In this document: piece by piece, positions 4,572-6,327 of the stretch
How positions within the stretch are numbered: the stretch's first letter is position 1
Layout of the letters: each line of letters opens with the position of its first letter
DNA from: a virus
Direction: 5' to 3' (one strand)
DNA length: 21,594 nucleotides
Virus record (IMG/VR): IMGVR_UViG_3300027963_000381
Location: 1 to 21,594 of that record
Position numbers and translations under genes: made by a program
Notes under the pieces: generated by a model
The model's database searches: none
Told to the model about the DNA's origin: nothing
What the model saw: the letters and a program-made list of their open reading frames with translations, nothing else

Positions 4572-4829
4572 ATGAAAACATTAAAAAATCTTAAAATATT
4601 AATCCCATTAATATTAACAACTTGTTGCTCTTGCGAACCAATAGACAGAATAGTTCGAGATGAATGTTTAAACAGAGAGATTTTTAAAGAATGCTTGAAC
4701 TCTCTCCCAGCTGGACCAACTACAACACATTACAACGATTGGGATGAGGTTGTGAAAGCTTGCGAACGAGTTTCTCACAGGCAAAGCCACAGAAAAAGAT
4801 CGGTAGTTAAAATAGAATGTTCTTTATAA
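4572..4829 (+). CDS. Secreted Cys-rich phage protein, possible lipoprotein
   Basis: 85 residues. MKTLKNLKILIPLILTTCCSC forms an N-terminal signal sequence ending in three cysteines, so lipid modification is possible though the lipobox is not canonical. The mature part has a conserved-looking core: RDECLNREIFKECLNSLPAGP, then YNDWDEVVKACE, and a closing KIEC. The paired Cys residues (DEC, KEC, KAC, IEC) suggest disulfides in the periplasm. From memory this pattern (EC..FKECL..LPAGP...YNDWDEVV..C) occurs in hypothetical proteins of many phages, with no assigned function. It is the last gene before the large non-coding region. Confidence 0.65.
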   Translation: MKTLKNLKILIPLILTTCCSCEPIDRIVRDECLNREIFKECLNSLPAGPTTTHYNDWDEVVKACERVSHRQSHRKRSVVKIECSL

Positions 4830-4835
4830 TAATTC

Positions 4836-4863
4836 TTGACAACTAATATAATCAATATATCAT
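4836..4863 (+). promoter_or_regulatory. Promoter driving the large non-coding RNA
   Basis: A perfect -35 box TTGACA (4836-4841) is followed after 16 nt by TATCAT (4858-4863), a 5/6 match to the -10 consensus. It starts 7 nt after the stop of the preceding gene and would begin transcription at about 4870, immediately before the first hairpin (4876-4896). This is the best sigma70-type promoter I found in the window, which implies host RNA polymerase makes the RNA. Confidence 0.6.
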
Positions 4864-5051
4864 TATTAAAACTTAGCACTGGGTTTAGATGAGTGCAGAA
4901 ATACTAGATAACAAAGTTAAGCTAGTCAAATTGCCTGAAAGGGCTTCAATCATAAAGCGGTTAAGTCTAGATAATTATATTTAATGCTAGACCTCTGGAA
5001 CGAGCAAGTCAACCTACCATCATCGCTTTGGTAAGTTTCAAGGGTTGACAA

Positions 5052-5076
5052 CAGTTAGCCTTCTGTAAAAAGGCAA
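5052..5076 (+). repeat. Duplicated hairpin element, copy 1 (inside the ncRNA)
   Basis: A 25-nt sequence occurring identically at 5423-5447. It contains the hairpin GCCTT-CTGTAAA-AAGGC preceded by CAGTTA. No compensatory differences exist between the copies, so the primary sequence as well as the stem seems to matter. It may be a repeated binding or RNA-RNA contact module of the large RNA. Confidence 0.85.
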
Positions 5077-5422
5077 ATCGGCTCGGTTAAAGAAGAGAGC
5101 AGAAAAACAGTAGAAAGTTAGCAACTATACTGTTAGTTGGGTTAAAAACCAACGAAATAGGGTATCAATCACTCGGAGGCTGGGAGATTCGTCTGGTTTA
5201 GCAACTAAGTGCCTGACGATGAAAAAGAGTGGCGAGACTTGATAAGTATTGTAGATCCTCACGAAAGCGTTGTGGGTATTGAAGTTTTCAGCCGACCGCA
5301 AGTTGGTGCGAGAAAAAGGTAGGTTTATTTATGCTAGTGCTAACAAAACATAAATAACGCTATTATTAAATGAAGCTTAATTTACAATTACCCGCCAAGA
5401 CAATAGGGTTGCATGTTTTGGT

Positions 5423-5447
5423 CAGTTAGCCTTCTGTAAAAAGGCAA
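5423..5447 (+). repeat. Duplicated hairpin element, copy 2 (inside the ncRNA)
   Basis: Exact copy of 5052-5076, 371 nt downstream and close to the presumed 3' end of the RNA. Its right half plus the next bases (AGGCAATTT, 5442-5450) is also a perfect 9-nt complement of AAATTGCCT at 4928-4936, so this copy could alternatively pair with the 5' part of the RNA; copy 1 matches that segment at only 6 bases. Confidence 0.85.
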
Positions 5448-5505
5448 TTTCAGTAGTCGACAATTAGTCGATAATTCAAATTATTAACAAACTAAAACTA
5501 AAATT

Positions 5506-5576
5506 ATGATAAACTTAGGGCAGATTTAAAAGCTCAATATCCCGATTTATTGCTTTATTCTCAACATAATGATTGA
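5506..5576 (+). pseudogene. Possible frameshifted remnant of a small ORF
   Basis: Between the ncRNA and the methyltransferase gene, one frame reads KLRADLKAQYPDLLLYSQHND and stops at TGA 5574-5576, a protein-like composition. It has no in-frame ATG: the only ATG (5506) lies in another frame and meets a stop after seven codons. A one- or two-base indel just after the ATG would restore a small protein. It could be gene decay, a sequence error or chance; the rest of 5472-5595 holds nothing I can identify. Confidence 0.25.
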
Positions 5577-5595
5577 CTTGTAATTTTACTATAAT

Positions 5596-6327
5596 ATGTC
5601 AAAGCAAGAGTTTCTTAACGGTAGAATAACTTTATACAATGCCGATTGCCTTGACTTTATGGCAAATATGCAAAATAAAGTCGATTTAATATTAACAGAC
5701 CCGCCTTATTTAATTTTAAATACTCAGGCTGGTGGTAAAAGCGAATTGAGTAAAAGTATTCAATCAATGAATACAGAAATCAAAAATAGCAATTTAGTAA
5801 GCGGTTTTGATTATAAAACAATATTAAATGAGTTTTTAAGAATAGGAAATAATAATATTTATATATGGTGCAATAAAGCTCAAATTCCTATATATTTTGA
5901 TTTTTTTTGCAAAAAAGATTTTTCTTTTGACATTATAAAATGGGTAAAAACAAATGCCACTCCTCTTTTTGACAATAAATATTTAAGTGATACTGAATAT
6001 TGCTTATACTTTCGTAAAAACGCTTATTGCAAACTTAATTCTTACAAGGATGCATCAACATTATTTTTACATCCAATAAATCAAAAAGATAAACAGCAAT
6101 ATAAACATCCTACAATTAAACCCCTTTCAATAATTTCCAAATTATTGCGAAATTCTAGTCAAGAAAATGAGCTTGTTTTTGATGGTTTTTTAGGGAGCGG
6201 AACTACCGCGGTCGCTTGCATTAAAAATAATAGGCGGTTTATAGGCTGTGAATTGGATAACCAGTATTTTGATTTATCGTGCAAAAGAATTGAAGAAGAA
6301 TTAAAACAAGAAGATTTATTTAACTAA
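5596..6327 (+). CDS. DNA N6-adenine methyltransferase, beta class
   Basis: 243 residues. Motif IV DPPY (35-38) precedes a target-recognition region, then a motif X-like KHPTIKP, then the SAM-binding motif I FDGFLGSGTT (195-204) and GCELD. This order (IV - TRD - X - I) defines beta-class amino-methyltransferases, and DPPY favours N6-adenine over N4-cytosine. It transfers methyl from S-adenosylmethionine to phage or host DNA. No restriction endonuclease is adjacent, so it is an orphan enzyme, most likely protecting phage DNA from host restriction or marking it for regulation. It is the last + strand gene before the convergent junction and lies 124 nt downstream of the ncRNA. No Shine-Dalgarno is visible. 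Confidence 0.92.
   Translation: MSKQEFLNGRITLYNADCLDFMANMQNKVDLILTDPPYLILNTQAGGKSELSKSIQSMNTEIKNSNLVSGFDYKTILNEFLRIGNNNIYIWCNKAQIPIYFDFFCKKDFSFDIIKWVKTNATPLFDNKYLSDTEYCLYFRKNAYCKLNSYKDASTLFLHPINQKDKQQYKHPTIKPLSIISKLLRNSSQENELVFDGFLGSGTTAVACIKNNRRFIGCELDNQYFDLSCKRIEEELKQEDLFN

Follow-up and report, generated by a model that had tools for sequence, protein, structure and literature searches.

A candidate phage non-coding RNA locus, probably made of two structured modules bordered by a repeated 25-nt pseudoknot

Introduction

Two small stable RNAs of unknown function, C and D, are encoded in the tRNA cluster of phage T4, inside the phage tRNA operon. ROOL and GOLLD are phage RNAs that occur near tRNA islands and whose function is likewise unknown (PMC12286853). 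Structure is also found in phage mRNA leaders; the gene 32 leader of T-even phages carries a pseudoknot 67 nt upstream of the start codon, which binds gp32 (PMC3014915). The locus described here lies in a 21.6-kb IMG/VR phage contig (21,594 nt, analysed at full length and called the window) that encodes an SU10-like adaptor and phage head and tail genes. A first-pass annotation had proposed a new giant RNA of about 600 nt in its gene-free stretch, either of a new class or a divergent member of GOLLD or ROOL. A new structured phage RNA was indeed found; however, the single giant molecule gave way to two tandem modules that also occur separately. Relatives of the locus sit in tRNA islands (L029, L030, L034, L064 and L086), whereas the window itself has no tRNA. 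Because ROOL and GOLLD are also tRNA-island phage RNAs of unknown function, the RNAs of the window would represent the same kind of biology.

Results

Gene-free gap and promoter

With ORFs of at least 80 aa taken as the gene set, the gap at 4830-5595 measured 766 nt and the next-largest gaps 292 and 260 nt, in agreement with the earlier remark that it is the only long gene-free stretch. It is flanked by a small gene ending at 4829 and an N6/N4 methyltransferase gene starting at 5596. No plus-strand ORF of at least 40 aa overlapped the gap, and the sole ORF within it was one of 58 aa on the minus strand. Homologues of the region showed indels and compensatory stem changes without a kept reading frame, which bears out the non-coding character assumed at first. 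The gap was also richer in G+C (0.389) than the window (0.315) and the flanking genes (0.28-0.30), as had been stated; 3.3% of all 607-nt windows equalled it. The promoter recognised in the first-pass annotation was present (Table 1) on the strand common to both neighbour genes. When the upstream stretch was shuffled 500 times, 3 shuffles equalled its score; the predicted transcription start lies near 4870. At the far end of the gap (5448-5580), 3' of the second copy of the element T described below, we noted a short hairpin (TCGAC-AATTA-GTCGA) and, near 5506, an ATG that opens 7 codons only; DKLRADLKAQYPDLLLYSQHND is read in another frame and may be left over from a gene formerly preceded by T.

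When the window was searched with Rfam 15, nothing was found at gathering thresholds and one chance miRNA match appeared at E<=10; the GOLLD and ROOL models were negative at both levels, and the idea of a divergent member of either family was abandoned. Among the relatives, tRNAs were the only Rfam matches of significance, again without GOLLD or ROOL. A group I or II intron or known ribozyme was rejected for want of an Rfam model match, and a tRNA or tmRNA because neither ARAGORN nor Rfam gave one. A homologue search with the methyltransferase retrieved relatives of the enzyme, none of them with the RNA. Similar DNA in isolated phages (INPHARED) was limited to chance matches of ~30 nt for the window, the T loci had none there, and none was found in E. 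coli genomes. No description of these RNAs was found in the open-access literature.

Folding z-scores were -1.44 for the whole region, -0.83 for RNA1 and -0.84 for RNA2, and the hairpin count by itself was not above chance, indicating that hairpins counted by eye would not alone prove an RNA. The evidence for structure is the homologues, not the folding energy: the earlier step from many hairpins to a structured RNA held through covariation and failed as an argument from hairpin number or stability.

Table 1. Positions of features in the window
Feature	Position	Strand	Remark
Sigma70-type promoter TTGACA-16-TATCAT	4836..4863	+	11/12 consensus matches; kept in syntenic L035
End motif A of RNA1, hairpin GCAC-(TGGGTTTAGATGA)-GTGC	4876..4896	+	24-25 nt before core
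RNA1 conserved core	4901..5049	+	17 relatives; core about 150 nt; whole RNA1 about 4870-5049
RNA1 P2	4903-4907/4922-4926	+	
RNA1 P3 with GAAA tetraloop	4933-4944; tetraloop 4937-4940	+	
AAGCG	4955..4959	+	possible pseudoknot partner of CGCUU 5024-5028; alternative to lower P4
RNA1 P4	4957-4970/4987-5005	+	short and long forms among relatives
RNA1 P5 GTCAACC/GGTTGAC	5008-5014/5043-5049	+	6/7 pairs compensated
RNA1 P6	5016-5019/5029-5032	+	encloses invariant loop UCAUCGCUU, 5020-5028
T copy 1, H-type pseudoknot CAG-TTA-GCCTT-CTG-TAAA-AAGGC-AA	5052..5076	+	
RNA2, second module	5077..5422	+	about 345 nt; one relative, L086:790-1184
RNA2 end motif A, GCTC-(GGTTAAAGAAGA)-GAGC	5081..5100	+	
RNA2 hairpin CAGTA-GAAAGTTAGCAACTA-TACTG	5108..5132	+	L086: CGGTT...AACCG, same loop; 2 compensatory changes
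RNA2 AT-rich hairpin	5320..5362	+	AGTGCTAACAA identical in L086, flanking stem sequence differs
RNA2 3' hairpin CCAAGACA...TGTTTTGG	5395..5421	+	L086: CTAGAA...TTCTAG
T copy 2	5423..5447	+	identical to copy 1

RNA1

Relatives of RNA1 were gathered by pattern scans of IMG/VR and 84,980 species genomes, together with model searches. Of the 17 recovered, 15 were loci in IMG/VR, and the other two lay on separate contigs (L035, L036) of a single MAG titled Rickettsiales bacterium. All scored 139-182 bits with model R1, and nothing fell between there and 18 bits; weak R1 matches (E 0.26-0.53) were disregarded. RNA1 was present in 1 of 344 genomes of the Rickettsiales order, a rarity that is as expected for a phage element.

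Five helices were supported by the alignment, in which 96.4% of cells were paired over 32 consensus pairs. The covariation that had been asked of homologues was found, 16 of the 32 pairs being double-changed while none of 500 shuffles reached the paired-cell or the double-change value. The covariation score was 0.467, compared with 0.193 in shuffled alignments (0/500) and at most 0.118 in slid ones, and it collapsed when partners were slid by one column; the shuffle tests overstate this significance because the relatives are partly close kin. The GAAA tetraloop and the seven-pair stem at 5008/5043 picked out by eye both exist, the latter being P5, which reads GCCCTAG/CTAGGGC and other variants in relatives. 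P6 flipped from ACCA/TGGT to AGGT/ACCT while its loop stayed invariant. The segments AAGCG and CGCUU were invariant in all alignment rows and could pair as a pseudoknot. The predicted RNA1 fold is strongly supported by covariation in several phages, and on these comparisons RNA1 is a previously undescribed RNA family, carried by phages or prophages at 18 loci or more, of which several lie inside tRNA clusters.

At the paired positions of RNA1, G-U cells numbered 35 and A-C cells 5, indicating that the plus-strand RNA is the conserved molecule. This ratio also speaks against a DNA-level element, namely a site of recombination or replication whose hairpins would act in the DNA itself. Such a site could draw on the identical 25-bp repeats that flank RNA2 and could recombine, and on the apparent exchange of modules between phages; however, the co-orientation with promoters and ORFs and the position of T at +1 of late mRNAs (below) leave it very improbable.

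Promoter-like boxes ended exactly 6 nt upstream of the first RNA1 base in six relatives (L024, L028, L031, L032, L033 and L036), and this fixed position of the -10 box indicates that RNA1 is its own transcription unit. The six promoters scored modestly in A+T-rich DNA (20-286 of 500 shuffles as good), but chance would not be expected to give all of them the same spacing, although some of the loci are close kin. RNA1 stood alone behind its own promoter, without T, in L024, L028 and L031-L033; the window and L035 have hairpin A inserted between promoter and core. The neighbours of RNA1 ranged from tRNA clusters (L029, L030, L034) to several unrelated small ORFs and other RNA modules, a variety that speaks against cis regulation.

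RNA2

No relative of RNA2 was present among the first loci collected. One was found in L086, a 140-kb phage contig, where it occurs without RNA1. No third true member emerged from two pattern scans, the second of which matched L086 only; L107 was rejected as a chance pattern match inside coding-like sequence. The stems noted by eye at 5106/5128, 5325/5349 and 5395/5414 do exist, and hairpins of altered sequence are retained at these places in L086. In L086 the loop GAAAGUUAGCAACUA sits on a stem compensated from CAGUA/UACUG to CGGUU/AACCG; also kept are the A hairpin, the segments GGUGCGA, AGUGCUAACAA and ACCCGC...AAUAGGG, and the sequence-changed 3' hairpin, followed by T. Folding of the two-sequence alignment gave 15 double-changed pairs. 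Support for the RNA2 structure, resting on two sequences, is moderate, and by this comparison RNA2 belongs to a second, rarer RNA family. ACCC (5390-5393) may pair with GGGT (5406-5409) across the 3' hairpin as a pseudoknot.

Conversely, the relatives of RNA1 had no RNA2, including the syntenic L035; RNA1, T and then an ORF followed one another in L035, L036 and others. The ORF of L035 comes directly after A-RNA1-T, suggesting either a gain of the RNA2 cassette at the repeat T in the window lineage or its loss in the other. These separate occurrences, and the lack of a match to the Rfam GOLLD and ROOL models, make it unlikely that both modules and both T copies form one ornate GOLLD/ROOL-like RNA of about 580 nt, even though they share one promoter and strand with no terminator between the modules, the identical T copies could interact, and the relatives lie in tRNA islands, as GOLLD and ROOL do (PMC12286853). 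Since RNA1 and RNA2 occur apart and T stands between them, the GOLLD/ROOL-like size and ornateness that had been suggested do not hold. Copies within one promoter unit could nevertheless act as one molecule.

Element T

The 25-nt sequence CAGTTAGCCTTCTGTAAAAAGGCAA occurred twice in the window, at 5052 and 5423. Pairing of CAG, 5' of the stem, with CUG of the loop makes it an H-type pseudoknot with a 3-bp stem 1, loop UUA, a 5-bp stem 2 and loop UAAA. All cells were paired (100%) in 10 distinct rows, and 4 of 8 pairs were double-changed. Stem 1 flipped once, from CAG/CTG to CTG/CAG in L059, and stem 2 varied freely across unrelated phages (GCC/GGC, GAG/CTC, CAG/CTG, CAA/TTG, AGGGG/CCCC). Five sites from a relaxed scan (L069, L071, L079, L084 and L089) lacked a complementary stem and were discarded as chance.

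Thirteen T contexts had a TAAATA box, and in 12 of them T began exactly 6 nt past it; T4-like loci with this spacing are L070, L073, L078, L080, L085, L087, L090, L091, L094, L101, L103 and L106. As the box is of late type, T would stand at the very 5' terminus of a late mRNA; the label T4-like used for these phages rests on this late-promoter-like box and not on phylogeny. A start codon followed T at about 20-31 nt in about half of the loci. In T4-like loci it usually lay 21-31 nt after T, and in Rickettsiales-type loci T stood 20-27 nt before start codons, or before tRNAs or the next RNA module. The regular distance argues for a cis role of T at least. Judged by its position, T fits 5'-end protection or translation control, and antitermination in long untranslated operons is possible. 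The next ORF in T4-like loci mostly encodes a small protein that looked phasin-like by eye, with no Pfam or clear PHROG match.

The start-codon distance could also mean that RNA1, RNA2 and T together form a riboswitch-like leader regulating the downstream genes, either the methyltransferase or a lost small ORF, and the invariant segments of RNA1, which allow two mutually exclusive pairings (lower P4 or AAGCG/CGCUU), could be its switch. However, what follows RNA1 is unrelated between phages or consists of other RNAs, RNA1 also stands alone with its own promoter and no T, and the window methyltransferase starts 148 nt past T copy 2 with only the 7-codon ORF between them. We therefore consider a cis-acting leader improbable for the locus as a whole.

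Border motifs and arrays

The stems of hairpin A co-varied around a constant loop (GCCT/AGGC, GCAC/GTGC, TGCC/GGCA, ACTC/GAGT, GCTC/GAGC), and a 4-bp stem was present at 34 of 434 loop matches compared with 7 of 389 in the control. The recurrent unit was [A]-24 nt-[core]-about 150 nt-[T]. Besides A and T there was a third kind of border, motif B (CAGCTCGGAAAGACGGCAAC / CAGCTGGGAAAGACCGCAC), which appeared as a small hairpin with a GAAAGA loop and one compensated pair; it ended modules just before hairpin A in ten loci (L023, L025, L029, L030, L038, L041, L048, L052, L054 and L058).

Of 77 loci with T or RNA1, 31 had A or B and 22 had an ARAGORN tRNA nearby, the remainder being mostly T alone. 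Many T loci strung together RNA modules, tRNAs, small ORFs and odd tRNA-like units that have end motifs in common. L064, in a genome of the Rickettsiales order, read promoter, tRNA-Asn, tRNA-like units, A-module-B, T, small ORF, T, tRNA-Gln; L086 read tRNAs, A-module, A-RNA2-T, A-module, A-module-T; and L034 read three tRNAs, A-module, A-RNA1-T. The window holds a reduced array of this kind, with two modules in the order promoter, A-RNA1-T, A-RNA2-T.

Other units were seen in the arrays. tRNA-like units with large extra segments lay in L022 (2036-2145, minus strand), in L026 3' of RNA1, and in L037, L039 and L064; that of L022 scored 49.6 bits as a tRNA, carries an insert of ~49 nt in its anticodon region and was not called by ARAGORN. 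A further recurrent module, unrelated to RNA1 and RNA2, had an outer stem like ACAAAGC/GCTTTGT with AATCGTGAGG inside (L051, L057, L086 around 1790-1860, and L032/L033 3' of RNA1). A short A-module-T unit with the T variant GTTAGTCCTTCTG was common to L036 (1042-1150, minus strand) and L041 (10466-10574, minus strand). Its presence in a Rickettsiales MAG contig and in a different phage contig is a sign of module exchange. The hosts would be Rickettsiales, judging from a MAG with that title and a second genome of the order, in which the phage contigs may be mis-binned.

Discussion

Plus-strand RNA structure, module independence, transcription signals, the T pseudoknot and the modular arrays were all established by computation. 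We favour the reading that 4836-5447 is probably a phage non-coding RNA locus with two independent, trans-acting structured RNA modules and T as border or 5'-end element. The sigma70-type promoter would transcribe RNA1 and RNA2 in tandem, each with hairpin A at its start and the pseudoknot T after it, and the transcript would be processed into separate RNAs. The stand-alone promoters, unrelated neighbours and conserved fold argue that the modules act in trans, presumably as stable folded RNAs. Protein binding is a common role for structured RNAs of this type, and the modules most likely bind a host or phage protein, for example as decoy or inhibitor; no partner protein or target of RNA1 or RNA2 was found. 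T would mark the borders as the folded 5' end of the downstream part, serving protection after processing, tuning of the translation of the next ORF, or both.

More tentatively, a group of phages, some infecting Rickettsiales, may carry arrays of RNA cassettes bordered by A, B and T and filled with interchangeable structured RNAs, tRNA-likes, tRNAs and mini-ORFs. If so, the arrays would let a phage transcribe, cut and exchange modules, amounting to an RNA effector toolkit against the host. Two RNA families and a leader pseudoknot of 25 nt, none of them in Rfam 15, are added by the locus, which also indicates that tRNA-island phage RNAs can be modular strings and not necessarily giant single molecules. 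Through the repeated borders, which provide covariance models, predicted 5' ends and a promoter at a fixed 6 nt upstream, the function of phage tRNA-island RNAs becomes directly testable in small constructs.

Comparison with known systems

ROOL, a phage and prophage RNA of about 600-660 nt, resembles the RNAs of the window and their relatives in being phage-borne, structured and often near tRNA islands (PMC12286853). It differs in that its Rfam model gave no match at E<=10 and in that two separately occurring modules are found here instead of a single RNA of ~600 nt with multiple pseudoknots; a further mark of ROOL is its RNA-only oligomeric nanocage. GOLLD shares with the window RNAs the phage origin and the combination of a conserved and a variable part, and with their relatives the tRNA-island association. 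However, it too was without an Rfam match, RNA1 measures only about 150-200 nt, and the variable part consists here of other RNA modules. Where GOLLD has a conserved 3' region and a variable 5' region that includes a tRNA, the RNA1 core stands alone with variability on both sides. RNAs C and D of T4, a different type of phage, are likened to the window RNAs by description only. The gene 32 leader pseudoknot is, like T, of the H-type and placed in a phage mRNA leader (PMC3014915). No single-stranded DNA-binding protein was recognised among the listed proteins downstream of T, and T differs in its 25-nt length, its 3- and 5-bp stems and its location at +1 of late mRNAs or between RNA modules. 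What marks a gene 32-type leader, an H-type pseudoknot with covarying stems in an mRNA leader, was nevertheless found in T.
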